Source of the DNA: a virus
DNA: 24,866 nt
IMG/VR virus record: IMGVR_UViG_3300028920_000254
Coordinates: 1-24,866 of that record
Direction: 5' to 3' (one strand)
Shown here: positions 10,497 to 21,443 of the stretch, in pieces
How the letters are laid out: each line of letters begins with the position of its first letter
Numbering within the stretch: position 1 is the stretch's first letter
Made by a program: the position numbers and the translations under genes
Notes under the pieces: model-generated
What the model was told of the DNA's origin: nothing
Seen by the model: only the letters and a program-made list of their open reading frames with translations
Databases searched by the model: none

Positions 10497-11228
10497 TCAT
10501 GTTAACGATCGGTTCCCAATACCCATTCGGCGCATTGCCTTCAAATCTTCTTTAATCATAGTCTGTGTAGATATCTTGCTGGCAGCGCTCTTTTGATCCT
10601 GACGTTTGATCTCGAACTTGTCTCCTGCGATCGCCTCTGCCCTGGCCAGCAAACCCATAATCTGTATCATGTTGCCAGAATATATTTGATCATCAGACAT
10701 GCCCGGGAAGGCACGCTTGATGAATGTCGCCATCTGCGTAATGAGATTGGACTCCAGCTCCTTCCGACCATAATCCTGCACGGTTAGTATGTCGTGTTCA
10801 GAATCCCACCCGGAATTCTGAATTGCCAGCTCTACGAGAGAGTAAGGCAGCCCCGCCAATACGGCCGGGTCGGTATCCAGGTTATCCGGATAGAGGATGC
10901 AGTCTCCAAATATCTCTTCGATATCCAGACTGCTGAATGCCTGTTTATCCTCCACCGGCAAACCCAACGTCGGATCGAACCACTTCCTGAGCAGGCAAAG
11001 GAGCTGGTACTCCTTTGCCGTCAGGCAGCGTATAAGGTAATGTTTACCTTCATGCTTAACATGGAATATGTCCTCATACTTCGCATGATACTTAACAACA
11101 TACGGCACCAGTTCGAGAGGCAGAGAATCAAAGTCGCCTTCGTCATCGCTGAGGTATCTTCCATGTATCCGAGGGCCTGGCAGTGGCGGATTAACCGGAG
11201 CTAAATAAGCTTCGGTGAGTTCGCCCAT
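10497..11228 (-). CDS. Tail-assembly-chaperone-like protein 2
   Basis: The product has 243 residues and starts 9 bases after the stop of the previous gene, with AAGG 6 bases before the ATG. The core at about 60-145 (YLIRCLTAKEY, then EEIFGDCILYPDN, then AGLPYSLVELAIQNSGW) has the same pattern as the upstream neighbour: a charged Thr/Ser-x-x-Glu-Tyr helix, a Cys-hydrophobic-Tyr/Phe-Pro block, then an Ala-Gly-Leu helix ending in a small-residue motif. This is the arrangement I associate with tail-assembly chaperones of long-tailed phages. It is followed by a helical block (AFPGMSDDQIYSGNMIQIMG) and a basic tail. The position directly before the giant tape-measure-type genes supports a role in keeping that protein soluble during tail assembly. 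A structural role in the virion cannot be excluded. Confidence 0.5.
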   Translation of the reverse strand: MGELTEAYLAPVNPPLPGPRIHGRYLSDDEGDFDSLPLELVPYVVKYHAKYEDIFHVKHEGKHYLIRCLTAKEYQLLCLLRKWFDPTLGLPVEDKQAFSSLDIEEIFGDCILYPDNLDTDPAVLAGLPYSLVELAIQNSGWDSEHDILTVQDYGRKELESNLITQMATFIKRAFPGMSDDQIYSGNMIQIMGLLARAEAIAGDKFEIKRQDQKSAASKISTQTMIKEDLKAMRRMGIGNRSLT

Positions 11229-11236
11229 TGTTCACC

Positions 11237-11791
11237 TTACAGTTTTGTTGGTGTTGCCAGACTGCCGAAAGCACTGGCCCTCATAATATATTCTGCCATG
11301 CTGCTAGCCAGACCAGCAAGGCCCAGCCGCAGATTCTGCACACTGACCTTCGGGAAGAGCGTACACAGCTCGGTGATCTTCTCTTCCTGGATCTCACGAG
11401 TTGCATTCTCAATGTTCATAATGCCTTTGTATTCCGGCTTGGACATTGCTCTGTAGAAATAGAAGGTGTCACATATATCTACAAAATAGACGGCACCAAA
11501 TTGCTTCTTCCAGTCCCAAATCTGTTTGAGCGTCAAACCAGCGGGTAGATACGGGGCGAGTGCCACGATCTCAGGTGGACACCCATCGGGTATCACGGCC
11601 TCTACATTGGGCTCATTGCTTTGCTGTTCTTGTGGCGGAGGAGGCTGTGGAGCCACTGTGGGTTCTGCTGCTGGTGCTGCACCGGGACCGAACCCCTTCG
11701 GCAGACCCGTGTCCGGATCTTCTTGAAGCGGCTGCTGGTTATCCGGCACGGGAGGTGCTGCTGCCGGTGTGGGGGCAGTATTTTCTGCCAT
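11237..11791 (-). CDS. Tail-assembly-chaperone-like protein 1 (Pro/Ala-rich N-terminus)
   Basis: The product has 184 residues from the chosen ATG at 11791, which has AAGGAG 7 bases upstream. An upstream in-frame ATG at 11818 would add nine residues but has only a hairpin before it. Residues 1-70 are a low-complexity Pro/Ala/Gln-rich tail, probably disordered. The C-terminal half (FYFYRAMSKPEYKGI, then ITELCTLFPKVSVQNLRLGL, then AEYIMRASAFG) shows the chaperone-like pattern shared with the next gene. In many long-tailed phages the two chaperone products come from one gene pair by frameshifting. Here the second gene has its own start and ribosome binding site, and I see no canonical slippery heptamer at the junction. 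Assignment rests on pattern and position only. Confidence 0.5.
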   Translation of the reverse strand: MAENTAPTPAAAPPVPDNQQPLQEDPDTGLPKGFGPGAAPAAEPTVAPQPPPPQEQQSNEPNVEAVIPDGCPPEIVALAPYLPAGLTLKQIWDWKKQFGAVYFVDICDTFYFYRAMSKPEYKGIMNIENATREIQEEKITELCTLFPKVSVQNLRLGLAGLASSMAEYIMRASAFGSLATPTKL

Positions 11792-11798
11792 GATGCTT

Positions 11799-11804
11799 CT
11801 CCTT
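11799..11804 (-). promoter_or_regulatory. Ribosome binding site deciding the start of chaperone-like gene 1
   Basis: AAGGAG on the minus strand is 7 bases before the ATG at 11791. It lies downstream of the alternative ATG at 11818 and therefore favours the shorter product. Confidence 0.7.
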
Positions 11805-11821
11805 AATACAATGTTCATATT

Positions 11822-11841
11822 AACCGGGACCGTCCCGGGTT
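11822..11841 (-). repeat. Hairpin at the end of the third tube-like gene
   Basis: AACCCGGGA and TCCCGGTT on the minus strand pair over eight bases with one bulged C around a three-base loop, overlapping the stop codon at 11840-11842. The bases after it (AATATGAAC) are not a T-tract, so it is at most a weak terminator. It may pause ribosomes or polymerase before the chaperone-like genes. Confidence 0.45.
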
Positions 11842-12706
11842 AGTCCAAGCGTCGCCCTATGAAGGGATAGGATATTTTGTTGGTATCCCGGGCGTCAATA
11901 GATGACTGAGAATGAGCGCCATCAAAATGTATACTACGAATAATATCCTTGTGGTCGGCATATCCTTTGCCGGTATAGGTATTAGGCTCCCCAAAATGTA
12001 TCTCGAGATCCACGCTGCCAAGGCGGTTGAACATCTCGACGGAGTCAGGGGACTTCATCTGCTGGCCTATCGTAGACTCCTTACGGTTGCGCCAGTAGGT
12101 GTTCTTCAGCTTCTCGGCAAAGTTACCACCACCTGTTTCTTCAACAAGCTTACGCAGAGTTTGGTTGGCTGCGTTATTGATATCCGGATTGTCAAGCTGA
12201 GGTTTAAGGACATCAAGAAGATTATTGATGCTCTTCTTGTACTTCTGCATACTATCCAGTGAGCGCTCTTCTATGCTGACGCCCTGCTGTACACCTGTGG
12301 CAGCGTGTCTGACCCTCACGTACATGGCAGCAAGCTGGTCAAGCGTTGCATTCGGATTCTGAACCAATGCTTCTGCCTCGTCATACAATGGCTGGACCGC
12401 GTCTACGGGAAATCTGTTGCCGAGTGGCCTCTCTTTCTGTGCCTTGTCATTGCTACTGACCAGGTCTTCGTTCAACAGTGCATAGCTCAGTTCGTTCTTG
12501 AATTCTCTGTTAAGAACCAGCAGACCATTAACTATTGTTCTGCCTATGGCGACTGTCTGGAACTCATGGTCCCTGAACCCGTAAAGTGGGTGTTTGGTAT
12601 TCTGTTGCCGATAGGTGATGGAATAGGCATTGTCCACCAGAACAGGCGGACGCCCTCTGATGCTCATCCATAACAAACAATCTGTGCCACAAAAGTATTG
12701 AGCCAT
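11840..12706 (-). CDS. Tail-tube-like structural protein with helical insertion (third paralogue)
   Basis: The product has 288 residues and its start overlaps the upstream stop (TAATG). The N-terminus, FCGTDCLLWM through SITYRQQNTKHPLYG to VAIGRTIVNGLLVLN (residues 5-66), lines up by eye with the tube gene two positions upstream (FSGVDMLCTF, SFSVTREKAPLYTMG, RGKRGIAGSLIFLVF). The C-terminus (231-288, with DIIRSIHFDGAHSQSSID and ISYPFIGRR) matches the tube's MEIRGVEVLNAGSGMSIDD and FVARSIVPW. Between them lies a helical insert of about 150 residues that the tube lacks. A role at the tube-baseplate junction, or as a tail tip or initiator ring, is inferred by analogy with other myoviruses, where extra tube-fold proteins start tube polymerisation. 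The fold assignment is my own alignment by eye, with no database support. Confidence 0.5.
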   Translation of the reverse strand: MAQYFCGTDCLLWMSIRGRPPVLVDNAYSITYRQQNTKHPLYGFRDHEFQTVAIGRTIVNGLLVLNREFKNELSYALLNEDLVSSNDKAQKERPLGNRFPVDAVQPLYDEAEALVQNPNATLDQLAAMYVRVRHAATGVQQGVSIEERSLDSMQKYKKSINNLLDVLKPQLDNPDINNAANQTLRKLVEETGGGNFAEKLKNTYWRNRKESTIGQQMKSPDSVEMFNRLGSVDLEIHFGEPNTYTGKGYADHKDIIRSIHFDGAHSQSSIDARDTNKISYPFIGRRLD

Positions 12707-13668
12707 TACGCAATCCCGGTATCAAAAGCTGGTGATTCATAGGCACCAGGCTGACTGGCGCTCTCTATATTGAACTTAAGGTTCTCTTGTATCTCTACCT
12801 GCTGGTTCGTAAACTTAAGGAACCTCTCACGGGTAGAGTTCAACTCCTGCTGACGCTGGAGACTAACACGCTCACGAATTTGCTTGAGTACGCTGGTCAT
12901 GTCCCGTGAAGCGAATGGTAGGATGTCCTCTGCAACATACTGATACATCGTTTCTGTATAGATGTCGTTCACGCTCAATGTGTTGGACGTGCTGACGAGA
13001 TTGATCCCACGGATAACCATCGATCCGGAATGCAGGAACTGATCCTGCGTATTCAGATCATCAGCAACCTCAGACATAGCTGTCAGCACGAGCCAGAATG
13101 GCGGGATCCTGTCCAGATAGAAGGGATTCTCACCCTGGTCCGCGTGCTTACGGAAAGCCTCTATAGTTGGCAGGAAGGACGAGAATGCATCCTGTTCCGC
13201 CAGAACCATGACCAGAGAGCCTGCTACTGTTCTGGTACCACGAGCATAACCAACGGCAGAAGAGGTGCCGAGCTTCCTACCCGGGATCATATCCCTGAAT
13301 GTGGAGATAGTAATTGTCTGCAACGAATTGACGCTGTATACACCAGCCTCACCAAATATGGGGAACCATATGGCTGCCTGTATATCGGCACCACTGAAGG
13401 ACACGAACCCGTGTTTGCGATCGAATAGCTGAGATAGACGCTGGTCATTCAGAACTGCCTGGAAGTGTTTTGTTACACCTGGGCGTTCATATTCGACATT
13501 GAGATCGTAGGGGTCTATAGGCTCGAATTCATAGGCCTCTGCAGCCTCTGCGTTAAGTCCTCCGGCAGGCAGTCTAACGCGCGTAGCGATGTCCGCATTA
13601 AGGGCGTGATGTGCCGCTCTCCCCATATAGTGGCGACTTAGAGCTGTCCAGTCTCGTATGTTGGCCAT
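12706..13668 (-). CDS. Tail-tube-like structural protein with C-terminal coiled coil (second paralogue)
   Basis: The product has 320 residues. Residues 90-252 repeat the landmarks of the tube protein encoded just upstream: FSGADIQAAI, then TITISTFRD, then RGTRTVAGSLVMVLAEQDAF, then PPFWLVLTAMSE, then MVIRGINLVSTSNTLSVNDI and AEDILPF. An N-terminal extension of about 90 residues and a Gln/Glu/Arg-rich helical tail (about 255-305, probably coiled coil) are extra. It begins 69 bases after the tube stop, beyond an intrinsic terminator, which suggests it is needed in smaller amounts. The ribosome binding site before the ATG is weak (GGA). The likely role is a tube-associated ring at the tail tip or tail end. 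It could alternatively be a minor tube variant. Confidence 0.5.
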   Translation of the reverse strand: MANIRDWTALSRHYMGRAAHHALNADIATRVRLPAGGLNAEAAEAYEFEPIDPYDLNVEYERPGVTKHFQAVLNDQRLSQLFDRKHGFVSFSGADIQAAIWFPIFGEAGVYSVNSLQTITISTFRDMIPGRKLGTSSAVGYARGTRTVAGSLVMVLAEQDAFSSFLPTIEAFRKHADQGENPFYLDRIPPFWLVLTAMSEVADDLNTQDQFLHSGSMVIRGINLVSTSNTLSVNDIYTETMYQYVAEDILPFASRDMTSVLKQIRERVSLQRQQELNSTRERFLKFTNQQVEIQENLKFNIESASQPGAYESPAFDTGIA

Positions 13669-13694
13669 GTTAATAGTCCATGTTCATGGTATAA

Positions 13695-13729
13695 AACCTG
13701 CCTGCGGCCCGAAGACCGCAGGACAGGTT
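13695..13729 (-). terminator. Intrinsic terminator after the tail tube gene
   Basis: On the minus strand two 6-bp stems (AACCTG/CAGGTT and CTGCGG/CCGCAG), separated by a small internal bulge, enclose an 8-base loop, and the hairpin runs directly into a TTTTAT tail. It lies 9 bases beyond the tube stop codon. It would trim transcription after the abundant tube gene so that the downstream minor tail proteins are made at lower levels. Confidence 0.75.
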
Positions 13730-13737
13730 GGTTGACA

Positions 13738-14442
13738 TCACAGTCTTTGCAATTCAGATGGTGTCGCGCCCTGTGTTTCGCTGACAAGGCCAGTGGCGGG
13801 ATCAACATACTTCTGACCAAACCACGGAACGATGCTGCGAGCCACGAAGGTACAACTCTGGTCCGTTGTGATATCGTCGATCGACATACCTGAACCTGCG
13901 TTCAGGACCTCGACCCCACGGATTTCCATACGAGCAAGGTGCCCGTATTCGTTAGCCGCGAGGATAACGATATCAAAAGGCGGAACCTGATCAGCATACC
14001 AGGCCTGACTCGGAACCTTGTCGTACTGACCAGATTCCAAGTTGTTGGCTGTATTCAGCTCTGCCGCAACAGTGCCGGTGTTGCTGAATACGAAACCATT
14101 GCCTGCAGCCAAACTGTTCGCCTGCTGGACTTCCCACTGATTTGCAATAAACTTGCCGGCTTCACGAAGACCCCACTGGAGCGCATCACGGTCAAAAACC
14201 AGAAAGATCAGGGATCCAGCAATACCACGCTTGCCACGGGAGAAGGACCGAGGGTCCGCAGAGCCCATAGTATAGAGGGGCGCTTTCTCACGGGTAACGC
14301 TGAAGCTGATACCCTGAAGTTCGCCGATTACCTTGCCCGCGAAGGTGCAGAGCATATCCACACCAGAGAAACTATTATAGCTTCTGGTATAGACGCTCGA
14401 CTCCTGAGGTCTGTTTGCTGCTGCATCATATCCATTAGGCAT
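13738..14442 (-). CDS. Tail tube protein
   Basis: The product has 234 residues and lies directly downstream of the sheath gene, the standard tube position in myoviruses. It is beta-rich. Landmarks are FSGVDMLCTFAGKVIGEL (25-42), SFSVTREKAPLYTMG (46-60), RGKRGIAGSLIFLVFDRDAL (69-88) and MEIRGVEVLNAGSGMSIDDI (172-191), a pattern typical of phage tube-fold proteins whose hexamers stack into the DNA channel. The start is secure: a full AAGGAGGT lies 6 bases before the ATG, the strongest ribosome binding site in the window, as expected for a protein made in hundreds of copies. A terminator follows the gene. Two paralogue-like genes come next. Which of the three forms the main tube is inferred from its position next to the sheath, its compact size and its strong expression signals. 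Confidence 0.7.
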   Translation of the reverse strand: MPNGYDAAANRPQESSVYTRSYNSFSGVDMLCTFAGKVIGELQGISFSVTREKAPLYTMGSADPRSFSRGKRGIAGSLIFLVFDRDALQWGLREAGKFIANQWEVQQANSLAAGNGFVFSNTGTVAAELNTANNLESGQYDKVPSQAWYADQVPPFDIVILAANEYGHLARMEIRGVEVLNAGSGMSIDDITTDQSCTFVARSIVPWFGQKYVDPATGLVSETQGATPSELQRL

Positions 14443-14461: not shown

Positions 14462-15811
14462 TTATTCGGGAGCTAGGCTCACGACAGTATTGATTCTGAC
14501 CAATTCAAACGCAGGTACCAATGTGAGCTTGACAGACGCTTCGCCCAGAATCTGCTGCGAAGTGGTAGCAGTGATAGAATACTGGTAACGCCGAAGCGCA
14601 CCCTTCTCCTGCATTTTGCCAAGAGCTGCATCGATAGCCTGATCCAGTGCTGAGCGTTTCGTTGCGGTGTTCGGCTCGCCGAGGAACGGATCCGCGACTT
14701 GTCTTATCACCCGAACTGCTTCGTGAGTAATACGTACCGTCGTCAGGTTGACGAAATCGGACCGGGCGTACTGACTGATATTGTACGCACCTGTAATGCC
14801 ACGCATGATCACAACGCCCTTGGGCTTGAGACCAGTTGTAACAAAACGAGCACCGATGATTCTGTCGACCTGGCTGAGAGACGCATTCCTCTGCTGAACC
14901 AGATTCGGAACCGGCTTGTTGGTGGGTGCACTGTGTGCTACCAGGCTGGTAATCATACCTGCGTACAATGCTGCACCGCCGCCGTTGTAGTAAGAAGTCG
15001 TCGGGGACAACAGCTGTCCTGACGAGTTGAAGTACCGCGCGTTGAACGCCGTGACGCTGATATATGCGCCTGCGTCGACCGGGTTGCCCCGGGCATCTGT
15101 GATAACAGAAGCTGCACCTTCAACTGCAGGTACGCCGTCTGTGGTTGCCCAGTACTTGTAATTCTCCGGTCGATAGTCACTATCCGCGTCGGTAACGCCG
15201 TCGAAGTCCGAGCAGAACTCGAAACTTTCCAGGGCTTGCGTCCAACGTTCGACCTGGGCAAGGGTCGGTGTTCCTTGATCCGTATCAACGGATGCGCCGT
15301 CTTCTTCTTCTGCAATCTGAAGAGCATTACGATGGTCAATCACACCAATGCAGGCACGATTGGTCGCTGTGCTCTCGTAGCAGAACATAGCCAGCTGATA
15401 CGCGAAGTCACCGCTCGCAGCGGGCTTATCAATGTAAGCACCGACAGGAACAGCAACGTCGACATCCGTATTCTTCAGGGTGTCGTATGCGCTCTGCAGG
15501 GCAGCATAGCGTTCATCAAGACTGACAGCTTCATTAGAAGTGTCAGCGATCTTGACAAGTTCTATGGCCTTTGCACCACCAGCATATGCCTCTTCCAGGG
15601 CTTTGGTAAGCTCTGACGGGCGTCCGCTGGCTTCAGCTGAATACAGAAAACCGGTCTCTACATCCGGGACCAGAAAAGGCTCACCGATAGTCAGGTTTGT
15701 ACCAGTCGTGACACCCAGAAGTGTTACCTTCGGGCCTGCGACAGGCTCAGACAACCTTAACCCACCATCGTTGATTGTGACGTCAACCCTTGGGATGTTA
15801 TCTAACGCCAT
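14462..15811 (-). CDS. Contractile tail sheath protein
   Basis: The product has 449 residues from the ATG at 15811, chosen because GGAGGG lies 6 bases upstream. An in-frame ATG at 15838 would add nine residues but places that ribosome binding site inside the coding region. The sequence has typical sheath features: an N-terminal beta arm with a PxVTLLGVTTGTNLTIGEP start, a central variable domain, and a conserved C-terminal domain where GARFVTTGLKPKGVVIMRGI is followed by LTTVRITHEAVRVIRQVADPFLGEPN and a final region ending in VKLTLVPAFELVRINTVVSL. Sheath subunits surround the tube and contract to drive it through the cell envelope. The gene is followed after 19 bases by the tube gene. The sheath identity is the main evidence that this phage has a contractile tail. 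Confidence 0.88.
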   Translation of the reverse strand: MALDNIPRVDVTINDGGLRLSEPVAGPKVTLLGVTTGTNLTIGEPFLVPDVETGFLYSAEASGRPSELTKALEEAYAGGAKAIELVKIADTSNEAVSLDERYAALQSAYDTLKNTDVDVAVPVGAYIDKPAASGDFAYQLAMFCYESTATNRACIGVIDHRNALQIAEEEDGASVDTDQGTPTLAQVERWTQALESFEFCSDFDGVTDADSDYRPENYKYWATTDGVPAVEGAASVITDARGNPVDAGAYISVTAFNARYFNSSGQLLSPTTSYYNGGGAALYAGMITSLVAHSAPTNKPVPNLVQQRNASLSQVDRIIGARFVTTGLKPKGVVIMRGITGAYNISQYARSDFVNLTTVRITHEAVRVIRQVADPFLGEPNTATKRSALDQAIDAALGKMQEKGALRRYQYSITATTSQQILGEASVKLTLVPAFELVRINTVVSLAPE

Positions 15812-15817
15812 GTGAAT

Positions 15818-15823
15818 CCCTCC
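15818..15823 (-). promoter_or_regulatory. Ribosome binding site that decides the sheath start
   Basis: GGAGGG on the minus strand lies 6 bases before the ATG at 15811. It argues against the longer start at 15838, which lies upstream of this site. Confidence 0.75.
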
Positions 15824-15869
15824 ATAGTTAGGGCACATAGTTTACCTAAAGGGTTGAATACGATAATAT

Positions 15870-16946
15870 TCATATGTGTGGTATCTCGACAGAGAAATCA
15901 TTGGACGGAGTAGGTATATCGTCTACACTCGTGACAATCTCCTCCTCATTTGCGCCAAGTTCACTAAGGCCAGCTACGAAAGTGGCGCGAATACGGTGTA
16001 TGACACCCACGTCATAGGCCGTTACCTCCTGTGTCCTAACTCCATACCTCACAGAGCGTGCAATGATATCATTCCGCCAGCGTGTTACATGGATATCCTC
16101 AAGCTTACCAAGGAACACCACTTGAACAACACCATTCTCCATAAAGATAGGAGTGTACAGGTTCATGAAGTATCGGAACCAGCTCGCCAGCGCTTCCGAG
16201 TTCTCGTTGGACCTCGACCAGAGATCAAACTGAATCTCACTGTCGAAGTTCTGTACCCTGTACTCTACATTTCTGCCGTATGCATCTTCATATTGTGTTT
16301 CTAACCGCCTGGGGCGATACTCCTTTGGGCTACCAAACAAATCCCTTACGCCAGCAGGGTTTGTTCTGAGAACCCGGTAGGTTATTGTATCGACCCATGG
16401 CTCTGACTGCTTCTCTTCAAGTGTTTCTTCATCAAAGTAATAATGCACATCCTCGGCATTGGGGTAGCCGATATGGAAGTTTACGACATTGCCCGCAGCC
16501 TCATCCAGTTTAAGAATGTCGCCAGCGGCAGGGGCTGTCTCTCCGTCCAATTTGACTACGTTAACTCCGATGTTGTGCAATAGTGCCCTGACTTCATACT
16601 GGACTATCCGCTGGTCCCCGGCGGGAACCTGATCGGACTTGATATAGTTATATATCTTGTCCCCCTTATTGATCTCAGGTGCAAACGGGAAGTACACGTT
16701 GAACGGATTATTGCCAACTGGTTCCCAATGCGCCTGGTACGTAAGGAGTCCAAGATATATAAAGTCAAGCAGGTCGTCAACCGAAGCATACCGGTGAGCA
16801 CGTGCGCGAGGAGCCTGATCTGACTGCTCCTCCACTGCCCATGCAGGCCTGTAGTATGGGTTGGTGATGAACGCAACGTTGTCTACCGTATTGCGCCTGC
16901 CCAACTTCATGGGCTTAAACCCGGGTATCCTGACGAGTTCAGGCAT
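15870..16946 (-). CDS. Neck / tail-terminator-like structural protein
   Basis: The product has 358 residues and starts 3 bases after the stop of the DUF5659-like gene. It sits between the head-tail connector genes and the sheath, where myoviruses encode neck, tail-completion or tail-terminator proteins. The C-terminal half (roughly 225-340), with EIQFDLWSRSNENSEALASW then FRYFMNLYTPIFMENGV and VVFLGKLED, has the 'quantity over a subset of residues, then long helix, then beta-hairpin' look of tail-terminator proteins that cap the tube. The N-terminal half is Tyr/Pro-rich, with two acidic loops, and has no recognised domain. No membrane segment or enzyme motif is seen. The functional call rests mainly on position. 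A gateway or collar protein is the main alternative. Confidence 0.45.
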   Translation of the reverse strand: MPELVRIPGFKPMKLGRRNTVDNVAFITNPYYRPAWAVEEQSDQAPRARAHRYASVDDLLDFIYLGLLTYQAHWEPVGNNPFNVYFPFAPEINKGDKIYNYIKSDQVPAGDQRIVQYEVRALLHNIGVNVVKLDGETAPAAGDILKLDEAAGNVVNFHIGYPNAEDVHYYFDEETLEEKQSEPWVDTITYRVLRTNPAGVRDLFGSPKEYRPRRLETQYEDAYGRNVEYRVQNFDSEIQFDLWSRSNENSEALASWFRYFMNLYTPIFMENGVVQVVFLGKLEDIHVTRWRNDIIARSVRYGVRTQEVTAYDVGVIHRIRATFVAGLSELGANEEEIVTSVDDIPTPSNDFSVEIPHI

Positions 16947-16949
16947 ATC

Positions 16950-17291
16950 TTATTCGTCCATAATCGAGACGTCGCTCGAAGCCACGTTGTTTACCATGGC
17001 ACGAACAGAGCGAAGCCGACTGAGCAGACCCTGGGCGTCGACCATGCATTTGCCTGACACGTAGTCGCAAATATCACGGCGGAGTTTGTCGGTATGGTCG
17101 AACAGAAACACGATCTTGTGCTTCTGGGTGCGACCACCGACCTTCCTTGGGTCGATCGACTTCTTCTCGATATCAAAGAGCTTATGTCCGACTTCCATGA
17201 GCACAACAGCCTGATTCAGGTCTGATGTCGTATAGATGTCGGTGTTAGGGTGCCTCTGCTTCGATACATTCTTTACATCTTCATTATTCAT
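16950..17291 (-). CDS. DUF5659-like small protein in the neck module
   Basis: The product has 113 residues, and AGGA lies 8 bases before the ATG. After a short charged N-terminus, the segment IYTTSDLNQAVVLMEVGHKL, then HKIVFLFDHTDKLRRDICDY, then GKCMVDAQGLLSRLRSVRAM closely follows the DUF5659 pattern as I know it: a TSDL start, a hydrophobic helix, a short 'VFVFED' strand, then a helix, then a 'NG-x-A-x-V-(N/D)' motif and a final helix. DUF5659 proteins are small, of unknown function and common in phages. It lies between the Ig/connector protein and the neck protein, separated by 10 and 3 bases, so co-expression is expected. A role in head completion or as an assembly factor is possible but not shown. 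Confidence 0.55.
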   Translation of the reverse strand: MNNEDVKNVSKQRHPNTDIYTTSDLNQAVVLMEVGHKLFDIEKKSIDPRKVGGRTQKHKIVFLFDHTDKLRRDICDYVSGKCMVDAQGLLSRLRSVRAMVNNVASSDVSIMDE

Positions 17292-17301
17292 TTTAATATT
17301 C

Positions 17302-18810
17302 CTAAGACCACAGGTCTGTTATTCTCGGCAGTCTCAACTGCCGTTGCAATTCTGTGTTCTCTCTGTTAGGACAGTAGGATGATCTCTTCCATGTACGTGT
17401 CCTGAAGTCCTGCTGGGTTGTGGATGCGTTAATGCCCTTGATTGCCACCCGTGTTCTGATAGGATTGCAATAAGCATCCTTCAAAGATTTGATTATAGCC
17501 TTGAGGCCGTCATTTACAACAGTTTGTTTAGGCGTAGCAGCATCTCCTGCCTGTCCGCTGAAGCTGATGCTGAAGTCGCCAAGGCGTTTACTGACACCTG
17601 TCTGTGCCACAGTGGTTGTCTGTGACATATCGAATATGTCGACAACGGTTTTGGCTATTGCATAGTCGAGTGCAGAGAATGGCGGATTGCAGAGCTCAAA
17701 ACCACGACAGGCTATTGTCCACGACCTGATAGAGTTCGTGAGTATATAGCGGTTGATAACTTCGTCTGTAGCAAGAATGCCAAGCTCTGTCAATTGGAGC
17801 CGTACCTCTTCTACGCTGGCATAGAGTGGGAAGAATGTCGTGCTGAAGTCAACATCCGTGGCTGTCTTCAAGAATACCTTGTTGCCTGAATCGCCCGGCT
17901 CTGACTTGAGCGTACGTTTAATATCAATGTCTACTTCTGAATTCAGTCTAATTGGGTCGTCATCGAATGCAATGAATACAAATTCGTTGGATACGGTCAA
18001 GGTATAATCCGGCTTGGTGTAGGCTTCTCTGGTACCTATGCAGAACAGATCGTTTGAAGTTGATTCCGCGCGGTCAACGATATCTGTCTCTGATGTGCCT
18101 GCGAATTTGAGGCCGGCTACTGGGTGCTGGCGTATGACAATGGCGTCTGCAACAGTATCCTCATCGACATCCCTGCTGAATTCCAAGGTGATGCCGCTGC
18201 TATTAATGTCAGATGGGCTTATATCAGATGCGCCATTAAGAGGATATGAGTCAACGAGATAAAGATCATTCTCATACGCTGTGGTAAGGTCATTAGATGC
18301 GTCTTCAACAACCTGGGTGCTGTCTGATACCCCGTCACCATCCACGTCAACGGCTGGGGCCGATGGACCTCCATCACTGGATGATGATGTGCTTGTGGAG
18401 CCTGTTGTACTTCCAGATCCACTGGTGATGGTTTCTTCCTGGCCGATAGTAGGCGACACAGAAGCAGATATAGCCTCACCAGTCTGGAATGATATAGTCT
18501 GGGTGTCCGTCAGGGCCTCGGCATCTGCAGCAATTATATGACCGCCAGGAGAATCAGCGCTCTCACCAATCAGATCAACACGGTAGGACGTGTATTCGTC
18601 CATGACCATAGACGGCAGCACGCGGATTGTGTTACCCGACAGCGTAACCTCTACGGTTTGAACTTCATTGGTATCGAGATTGGTAAGAAGAACAGTGCCG
18701 CGGTTGACCGTCGTCATGTCCAGGTTCTTGCTGAAGGACACGTAGATGGTTATATTCGGACTAACGTCCGTTGCGGCATCAACAGGGGTTGTCTGTATGA
18801 TTGATAGCAT
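17302..18810 (-). CDS. Head-tail connector-like protein with two N-terminal Ig-like (Big_5-type) domains
   Basis: The product has 502 residues and starts inside the upstream stop (TAATG). Residues 1-110 and about 185-325 each begin with a 'P-x-(D/N)GA-x-D(V/I)SP' motif and continue as beta sandwiches containing 'I-x-(V/L)-x-FS' strands, as in Big_5/SbsA-type Ig-like domains. Between them is a Ser/Thr/Gly-rich linker (about 128-150) and DVDGDGVSD at 155-163, a calcium-binding type loop as in dockerin or thrombospondin-3 repeats. Residues 330-460 are helical (VEEVRLQLTELGI, ALDYAIAKTVVDIFD) and then read GVSKRLGDFSISFSG, reminiscent of gp6/gp15-type head-tail connectors that bind the portal. 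The last 40 residues are basic and aromatic. Position in the neck module supports the connector role. The surface-exposed Ig domains may decorate the neck. Confidence 0.55.
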   Translation of the reverse strand: MLSIIQTTPVDAATDVSPNITIYVSFSKNLDMTTVNRGTVLLTNLDTNEVQTVEVTLSGNTIRVLPSMVMDEYTSYRVDLIGESADSPGGHIIAADAEALTDTQTISFQTGEAISASVSPTIGQEETITSGSGSTTGSTSTSSSSDGGPSAPAVDVDGDGVSDSTQVVEDASNDLTTAYENDLYLVDSYPLNGASDISPSDINSSGITLEFSRDVDEDTVADAIVIRQHPVAGLKFAGTSETDIVDRAESTSNDLFCIGTREAYTKPDYTLTVSNEFVFIAFDDDPIRLNSEVDIDIKRTLKSEPGDSGNKVFLKTATDVDFSTTFFPLYASVEEVRLQLTELGILATDEVINRYILTNSIRSWTIACRGFELCNPPFSALDYAIAKTVVDIFDMSQTTTVAQTGVSKRLGDFSISFSGQAGDAATPKQTVVNDGLKAIIKSLKDAYCNPIRTRVAIKGINASTTQQDFRTRTWKRSSYCPNRENTELQRQLRLPRITDLWS

Positions 18811-19169
18811 TAAAGTAGATCCATTGCTTTCTTCTTGCGTTTAGGAGAATCTATGTATGGATCTGGCTCGAACTCTTCGGGCATAGAAGTAGATGTGTAT
18901 AGCTCCTTCTTGCCGTCTTTGATGACAAATGCCTTGCCATCCTCCAAGACAATGTCGTCCTCTTCAGCCATATCCTCTACTTTGGCGGCGTCGCCCTTGA
19001 GTCTCCCCTCCATTATGCGAATATATCGGTCACGTTTGAGTGTTGCCTTCTCGTTGTCGAGAAGAGCCTGCACCTCATCGTCCGAAAGCTGAAGAACGGC
19101 ATCGATGAAGTTCTTCGCGGGCAGATTCAGCAGATTTAGCCCGGTTGGTACGCCTTGTTCGTCATTCAT
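18810..19169 (-). CDS. Small acidic protein of unknown function after the capsid gene
   Basis: The product has 119 residues from the ATG at 19169, chosen because GAGGA lies 8 bases upstream. Three in-frame ATGs at 19190, 19184 and 19178 precede or overlap this site and are less likely. The helix FIDAVLQLSDDEVQALLDNE followed by RYIRIMEGRL resembles the short 'L-x-x-LL-x-x-E-x-x-x-(K/N)R-x-x-x-I-x-x-x-E-x-R-L' tail seen in some phage head-gene neighbours. The second half is rich in Asp, Glu and Lys, with a basic PKRKKK stretch near the C-terminus. It overlaps the Ig/connector gene by one base. It lies just beyond the capsid terminator, so it is the first gene of the next, probably weaker, transcript segment. 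Function is unknown; a head-completion or assembly role is plausible from position only. Confidence 0.6.
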   Translation of the reverse strand: MNDEQGVPTGLNLLNLPAKNFIDAVLQLSDDEVQALLDNEKATLKRDRYIRIMEGRLKGDAAKVEDMAEEDDIVLEDGKAFVIKDGKKELYTSTSMPEEFEPDPYIDSPKRKKKAMDLL

Positions 19170-19177
19170 GCTATTCA

Positions 19178-19182
19178 TCCTC
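19178..19182 (-). promoter_or_regulatory. Ribosome binding site deciding the start of the small acidic gene
   Basis: GAGGA on the minus strand is 8 bases before the ATG at 19169. It overlaps or directly abuts the earlier in-frame ATGs and so cannot serve them. Confidence 0.65.
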
Positions 19183-19205
19183 ATATTCATATTGGTGTAA
19201 TAACA

Positions 19206-20624: not shown

Positions 20625-21443
20625 TTAGACGTTAAAGTTGATGATGGCTTTGTAAGTGGCAGAAACTCCGCCGCCACGTACATTGCCGGAATCGGCGATG
20701 GCCGAACTGAGGTGGTTCGAGATACCGTTTGTCTCTGCACCTGTCACGCCGAAGCCAGGAACGGTTTCGACTTTATCCAGGTTATCGATAACGGAAATCG
20801 CGTCCACACGCATGACCTTACCAACCACATTTGTGAGCAGCTTGTACAGCGTAGCTGCATCGATTGCAGTGAAGTCACCGGCCTTCAACGGCATCCAGTG
20901 GCCTGGATTGGCGTTGTCGGGAACGATGAGATCACCTGGGGTCGCATCCATCTGGTTGGTTGTACGAATCGGGTACTCCACCATATAGTCACAGACGATG
21001 CCCTTCTGATTCGTCTGGACCTGGTAGTTGAGGCTGCTCGGCTGACCATTCAATTCTTGGTTCTGCACCATATCGAAGGCTGCATAACCAATGCAATAAT
21101 TGGCAACCAGGCTGAAGCTTGCAGGTGTCGGGCCAGCTGCAACAGCATCACCGAGACCTTCAGATTCAGCAGCATCATACTTGGGAGTGCCGTACGTAGC
21201 ATCGGTCGCGGAGTAGCTGATGGTGGCTGCTGCCCCGCAGTTAGCGGGAACGATGTTATTCCACGCATCAAGGGCGATGAGCCGCCCAGCGGGAATAACA
21301 ACAGGATCACCTTCAACTCCAAAAGTATCCACGATCGGCAGATACGGAGCAGGTTTAAGACTCAGAGCGGGACGGAATCCCTCACTGATCTCCTGCATCT
21401 GCTTCCTGCGGAGGCTTAGACCCCTGGCAATTTTGATAGTCAT
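20625..21443 (-). CDS. Probable capsid decoration / head structural protein
   Basis: The product has 272 residues and lies between the protease-scaffold gene and the capsid gene, the slot of the lambda decoration protein (order protease, scaffold, decoration, capsid). An AGGAG lies about 11 bases before the ATG. The sequence is beta-rich without membrane segments or enzyme motifs. The pattern GDPVVIPAGRLIALD followed by NIVPAN (about residues 45-67) resembles the 'G-x-x-I-P-A-G-x-L/V' beta-turn signature common in phage decoration and head proteins. It ends with a short beta strand (TYKAIINFNV). A cement or decoration role on the capsid surface is inferred from position. A vertex or spike protein is an alternative. 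Confidence 0.5.
   Translation of the reverse strand: MTIKIARGLSLRRKQMQEISEGFRPALSLKPAPYLPIVDTFGVEGDPVVIPAGRLIALDAWNNIVPANCGAAATISYSATDATYGTPKYDAAESEGLGDAVAAGPTPASFSLVANYCIGYAAFDMVQNQELNGQPSSLNYQVQTNQKGIVCDYMVEYPIRTTNQMDATPGDLIVPDNANPGHWMPLKAGDFTAIDAATLYKLLTNVVGKVMRVDAISVIDNLDKVETVPGFGVTGAETNGISNHLSSAIADSGNVRGGGVSATYKAIINFNV

Follow-up and report, generated by a model that had tools for sequence, protein, structure and literature searches.

It is already known from structures that the adaptor rings of contractile-tail baseplates resemble the rings of the tail tube. According to published accounts, the tube of phage T4 is formed by gp19, and gp54 and gp48 are hexameric rings located between hub and tube which start the tube (PMC8718954, PMC3004832). 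In phage P1, the tube protein BplB, the initiator Tub and the tube-linking protein PmgG all exhibit tube-like folds (PMC12810830), and an old gene duplication has been proposed for Tub and BplB (PMC9024508). AlgoCIS likewise combines a tube protein, Alg1, with two tube-fold initiator layers, Alg5 and Alg7, the latter bearing an additional domain that extends to the wedges (PMC8894135), and in gp43 of phage Mu a tube-like domain is joined to a helix-rich domain that binds the wedges (PMC11915804). The architecture of a tube plus two rings is thus known. Here we describe three consecutive genes, designated T1, T2 and T3, at positions 11840–14442 of the viral contig IMGVR_UViG_3300028920_000254, the whole of which was analysed (24,866 bases; hereafter ‘the window’) and all large genes of which lie on the minus strand. 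As in T4, two further tube-fold proteins (T2 and T3) are encoded beside the tube protein; in contrast to T4, all three genes are adjacent here, and their sequences show kinship.

A first-pass annotation of the sequence had placed three tube-fold-like genes in a row at exactly these positions, and all three are open reading frames of the minus strand. T1 (13738–14442; 234 residues), most likely the main tail-tube protein, directly follows the sheath gene, matches PHROG 9206 (E-value 4e-50) and, judged by its sequence, belongs to the tube family of contractile tails. Profile homology, AlphaFold models and fold searches point to T2 (12706–13668; 320 residues) and T3 (11840–12706; 288 residues) as a second and a third tube-fold protein, putatively the tube-initiator ring and a hub-adjacent ring, respectively. 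The landmarks listed in the annotation as common to the three proteins are all present in order, that is, for T1, T2 and T3, FSGVD, FSGAD and FCGTD as the first, a β-strand with ISFSV, ITIST and ITYRQ as the second, RGKRGIAGSL, RGTRTVAGSL and IGRTIVNGLL as the third, and IRGVE..SIDD, IRGIN..SVND and IRSIH..SSID as the final one. The third block of T1 and of T3 departs from the exact pattern proposed, and T3 lacks the closing I-(V/L)-P-(W/F).

Sequence comparison confirms that T1, T2 and T3 are paralogues. The kinship of T1 and T2 is evident already from the single sequences (Smith-Waterman score 151, compared with no more than 55 after shuffling; none of 1000 shuffles reached it), and the single-sequence scores for T1–T3 and T2–T3 are not above chance, being reached by 361 and 651 of 1000 shuffles, respectively. 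Pairwise comparison of the family profiles with hhalign, which the annotation had proposed as a check, aligns all three pairs, with probabilities of 100% for T1–T2 (E-value 1.7e-48), 95.8% for T1–T3 (6.7e-9) and 89.2% for T2–T3 (2.2e-6). For 18 control pairs (T1, T2 or T3 vs. six other families from the same loci; two chaperone families were pooled at first and later treated separately) the probability never exceeded 0.48%, and the top values in 50 column shuffles per pair were 17.5% (T1–T2), 2.0% (T1–T3) and 2.1% (T2–T3); the column shuffles rule out that the likeness of T3 arose by mere chance. In searches with hidden Markov models at an E-value below 1e-3, the T1 profile retrieves 84 of 84 T2 and 34 of 84 T3 proteins, and the T3 profile 83 of 84 T1 and 20 of 84 T2 proteins. 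None of the three proteins has a real match in Pfam or NCBIfam, a scan of viral contigs with the window's T2 alone returned no relative, and tblastn of the window's T3 against a phage collection gave no match. The T3 profile also gave weak PDB hits, dismissed as chance, to a ribosomal protein and to amyloid precursor protein.

AlphaFold2 models, computed with 72 sequences for T2 and 74 for T3, predict that both proteins carry the tail-tube β-sandwich fold (the alignments for modelling and for the segment lengths given below were made without the three annotated phages, the cut locus L021 and six near-duplicates, and for T2 also without loci L054 and L089). The mean predicted local distance difference test score is 76.4 for T2, with values mostly of 85–97 in the core, and 77.4 for T3, with values mostly of 79–98 in the core halves. 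At E-values up to 0.001, Foldseek matches the T2 model to 86 PDB chains (the 50 listed belong to entries for tails, necks, connectors, injection systems and Hcp-type proteins) and the T3 model to six chains, each belonging to a tail, neck or collar entry. When aligned with VIA-align, T2 superposes on chain 9gb1_S (Z-score 11.2; root-mean-square deviation 3.1, 129 aligned residues of a 130-residue chain) and T3 on chain 8q01_A (Z-score 11.1; 2.5, 132 of 139 residues), so that both match solved tubes at Z-scores of ∼11 over nearly the whole target, and the outcome named in the first-pass annotation as refuting its reading, a fold of T2 or T3 unlike that of the tube, did not arise. Since the two lists share their top-ranking solved tubes, the folds of T2 and T3 agree via a common reference. 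The T2 model also matches the T4 tube itself (5w5f_A; Foldseek E-value 7.9e-5, probability 1.00); T4 gp48 and gp54 are not named among the 50 matches listed per PDB structure comparison. Among viral models, the best matches of T3 include two proteins of phage ME3 whose lengths, 191 and 228 residues, equal those of gp32 and gp30, as well as Gp179 and Gp180, which are neighbours in Bacillus phage G.

Relatives of T1 are found in four phage records representing three phages, that is, Bacillus phage KLEB27-3, Moorella phage MTATph1 and Acinetobacter phage ME3 (twice), all of which possess three tube-like genes in order (KLEB27-3 gp26–28; ME3 gp30–32; MTATph1 CDS0020, 22 and 23). T1 is 47.7% identical to KLEB27-3 gp26, which is annotated ‘tail tube protein’, as are all three genes of that phage. 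Along with phage 0305phi8-36, these phages are direct relatives having the same triplet and gene order. The window matches the order of the 0305phi8-36 lineage, namely sheath, three tube-like genes, chaperone pair, long genes and hub, as taken from PMC2147016 and from notes in the ME3 record. MTATph1 differs in that a gene for S-adenosylmethionine decarboxylase (20654–21010 of that locus) separates T1 from T2; its 118-residue reading frame was removed by hand ahead of the triplet count. A literature search, only partly aimed at these phages and covering few subscription papers, turned up no publication on this lineage's triplet.

In IMG/VR, 93 viral loci were collected (from the top 80 among 537 matches in one scan and from a second, narrower one), and since best matches were taken, the sampled loci lean to close relatives; near-identical loci are included, with 80 T1, 79 T2 and 79 T3 sequences being distinct. 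The ordered triplet is complete in 84 of 97 sources (the 93 viral loci, the three phages and the window), and the remaining 13 are cut, ending 0–331 bases past the last tube gene found. Among 13 further loci, six have the full triplet (one being ME3 again), two break off within T1 or shortly behind it, and five from Acidobacteria have a T1 fragment only. In a tree of 119 cores (every second alignment row plus nine annotated proteins), T1, T2 and T3 each form a separate clade (support 0.79, 0.68 and 0.93), and the duplications hence predate the split of these phages. Profile homology and separate clades together support the tandem duplication suggested by the annotation. The closest T1, 88% identical, resides on a contig of 231,647 bases, and the window is therefore most likely a fragment of a jumbo-phage genome.

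The three proteins differ in how strongly they are conserved and in what has been added to the core. Mean column identity is 40% for T1, 14% for T2 and 13% for T3. The T1 core comprises residues 21–87 and 149–207, separated by a middle loop (residues 88–148). In T2, the tube-fold core (residues 88–254; 12907–13407), which aligns to the solved tubes, is preceded by an 87-residue N-terminal extension (13408–13668), predicted to be helical at low confidence and not mentioned in the annotation, and is followed by a long helix assigned by DSSP on the model (residues 255–304; 12757–12906). The coiled coil proposed for T2 thus stands as a long predicted C-terminal helix, although in some relatives this extension is nearly absent (8–14 residues). 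The helical middle insert of T3 (residues 76–224; 12035–12481) does comprise 149 residues, close to the ∼150 proposed, but its net excess over T1 is only about 90 because T1 has a 61-residue loop at that place. Across 74 proteins each, this middle segment spans 64–240 residues in T3 and 42–86 in T1, compared with only 18–41 residues in 72 T2 proteins. The first core half of T3 is rigid (65–74 residues, mostly 67), and in T2 the N-terminus ranges from 2 to 89 residues, the C-terminus from 8 to 139 and the first half, via an insertion early in the fold, from 69 to 214. With lengths varying so widely, the additions are ruled out as defining marks of T2 or T3. Individual loci show further insertions. 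The T2 of L054 (9719–11848; 709 residues) has a very long, charged and probably helical insertion lacking a Pfam match, and that of L089 (9721–12063; 780 residues) contains an intein, which has a LAGLIDADG domain and interrupts the conserved RGxR-TIAGS block. At the same block, T1 of L098 (8977–9919) is split by ∼330 bases, possibly an unrecognised intron; an Rfam search of this split gene gave no intron match.

The gap between T1 and T2 in the window (13669–13737, minus strand) contains a strong, terminator- or attenuator-like hairpin of 15 pairs with a UUCG loop, followed by UUUUA (minimum free energy –34.8, z –4.25, 0 of 200 shuffles). Across loci, z-values, computed at first with plain shuffles and then with the dinucleotide-preserving shuffles from which the counts given here derive, fall below –2 in 65 of 78 distinct T1–T2 gaps. 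The corresponding counts for neighbouring gaps, many of which are shorter than 20 bases and thus too short for the test, are 0 of 6 (T2–T3), 1 of 25 (sheath–T1), 2 of 32 (T3–chaperone) and 2 of 9 (chaperone). The presence of a hairpin in the T1–T2 gap of most loci, in contrast to the gaps nearby, is new here. A stem of at least 7 pairs occurs in 72 of the 78 gaps, with medians of 13 pairs and of 13.5 bases from the T1 stop. Many of these hairpins are terminator-like, since a T-rich 3′ foot (at least 4 T in 8 bases) is present in 48 of the 72 and, by a stricter count, a stem with a T-run in 25 of the 78 gaps; for the remainder, a role as stabilising 3′ hairpin has equal likelihood. In 36 of 84 loci, the reading frames of T2 and T3 share 1 or 4 bases (1 base in the window). 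Together, hairpin and overlap fit a tube gene that is used heavily and, downstream of it, two coupled ring genes that are used little.

Our best reading, by analogy with T4, P1 and AlgoCIS, is that the main tube would be built by T1, the ring initiating it by T2 and the hub-adjacent ring by T3. A tail-tube gene of a phage ancestral to this lineage would have been duplicated in tandem to yield three genes. T1 would polymerise into the long tube within the sheath, a ring of T2 would be the start point of tube growth, and a ring of T3 would sit between T2 and the three-fold hub, with the helical additions of both possibly extending outward to the baseplate wedges. The hairpin after T1 would end most transcripts, resulting in hundreds of copies of T1 and few of T2 and T3. 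Overall, we consider it quite probable that a tandem-duplicated tube gene gave rise to three kinds of presumably hexameric rings whose expression is influenced in this way. The order of the two rings, T2 adjoining the tube and T3 the hub, is fairly likely, given the order of the genes and the closer resemblance of T2 to T1. The invariant gene order, the strong conservation of T1 compared with the divergent T2 and T3, a hairpin behind T1 only, and the design of the T4, P1 and AlgoCIS tails also support the specialisation envisaged in the annotation, namely a main tube plus two low-copy rings.

The triplet of the window is thus a known architecture in unusually clear form, with detectable sequence kinship and strict synteny. 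P1 likewise has three tube-fold ring types, in the roles proposed here, but the BLASTp similarity reported for Tub and BplB is a 22-residue stretch, whereas the window triplet aligns over whole cores. In AlgoCIS, Alg7 has a LysM domain, whereas the Pfam search of the window's T2 and T3 showed none. Several observations weigh against our reading. No sequence match to T4 gp54 or gp48 emerged when the T1, T2 and T3 profiles were searched against PDB sequences with hmmsearch, which gave no tube protein up to an E-value of 1. The window's own T3 is missed by the T1 and T2 profiles at E-values up to 10, the T-rich foot is limited to part of the hairpins, and the five acidobacterial loci have a T1 fragment without T2 or T3.

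The same evidence bears on other explanations. Terminator proteins can share the tube fold, and several of the top-ranking fold matches belong to neck or collar entries, the lists being silent on which molecule each chain is; T2 or T3 could hence be a head-proximal ring, that is, a tube terminator, rather than a baseplate ring. This is nevertheless unlikely, as T2 and T3 are located between tube and chaperones, and the unassigned genes upstream of the sheath (15870–19190) occupy the usual position of terminators. Moreover, T2 and T3 bear helical additions like the baseplate initiator gp43 of Mu (PMC11915804).

T1, T2 and T3 might also be alternative subunits mixed along the tail, yielding decorated or tapered tubes. 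The clearly T1-like core of T2 would suit such an arrangement, as would the precedent of Tub and BplB of P1, for which the roles of main and minor tube were once undecided (PMC9024508). We regard it as improbable in view of the hairpin that follows T1 and is absent from the neighbouring gaps, the strong conservation of T1 only, and the large variable insertions of T2 and T3. That T3 is no paralogue and acquired the common fold independently would explain why its single sequence compares with T1 or T2 no better than shuffled ones, but is very improbable, the T1–T3 profile E-value of 6.7e-9 comparing with a best value of 0.024 in 50 column shuffles, and the T3 profile retrieving nearly all T1 proteins.

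The genes flanking the triplet likewise lie on the minus strand. Directly upstream of T1 is the tail sheath gene (14462–15838; PHROG 16991 tail sheath, E-value 1.3e-63). Two tail-assembly chaperone-like genes (11237–11818 and 10497–11228) occupy the position of gp143 and gp144 of 0305phi8-36, which are related to each other (PMC2147016). The two chaperone-like families are likewise homologous to one another (99.5% in hhalign), and such a pair comes after T3 in 81 of 84 loci. Thereafter come two very long genes (1393 and 1872 residues) and the start of another at the window edge; from the gene order of 0305phi8-36 (PMC2147016), the 1872-residue product may be the tape measure and the gene at the edge may encode the hub. 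By its position as third in order, gp142 of 0305phi8-36 is T3, and gp142 has been described as having an inserted domain that is missing from a prophage relative (Hardies 2007, PMC2147016).

Additional observations were made for individual relatives. The five acidobacterial contigs, from metagenome-assembled genomes (L102 30–1771, L103 74–1769, L105 1823–3329, L107 6769–8306 and L108 4126–5382), each contain a lone truncated T1-like gene ∼510–660 bases from a divergently oriented serine recombinase gene. Matching stretches are roughly 68–78% identical in DNA among the five, and only 2 of 396 sampled genomes of the phylum match, both already among them; these units are probably decayed copies of one integrated element. 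In the contig of L063 (G006), two weak tube-profile matches at 100864–103011, ∼90 kb from the triplet, suggest that this phage may possess a fourth tube paralogue. Finally, the tube protein bears the label ‘major head protein’ in PHROG 9206 and in the ME3 and MTATph1 records, apparently a propagated error, which our assignment corrects.

What the triplet implies for contractile tails in general can be put more broadly, with even chances of being right. Tube, initiator and hub-side ring being recognisable paralogues in a syntenic block conserved throughout a large lineage of mostly uncultured jumbo phages, it is tempting to propose tandem duplication of the tube gene as the origin of the adaptor rings in contractile tails. 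The tube itself would have remained fixed, while the rings would have gained domains at fixed sites (both ends and an early loop in T2, the middle loop in T3) and would therefore be adjustable docking rings, with the hairpin, conserved in position, setting the copy ratio. Sequence kinship that is still readable across three rings, encoded by genes adjacent lineage-wide, is direct evidence for such an origin by duplication, and the natural series of insertions in T2 and T3 offers a means to test what these rings dock to.

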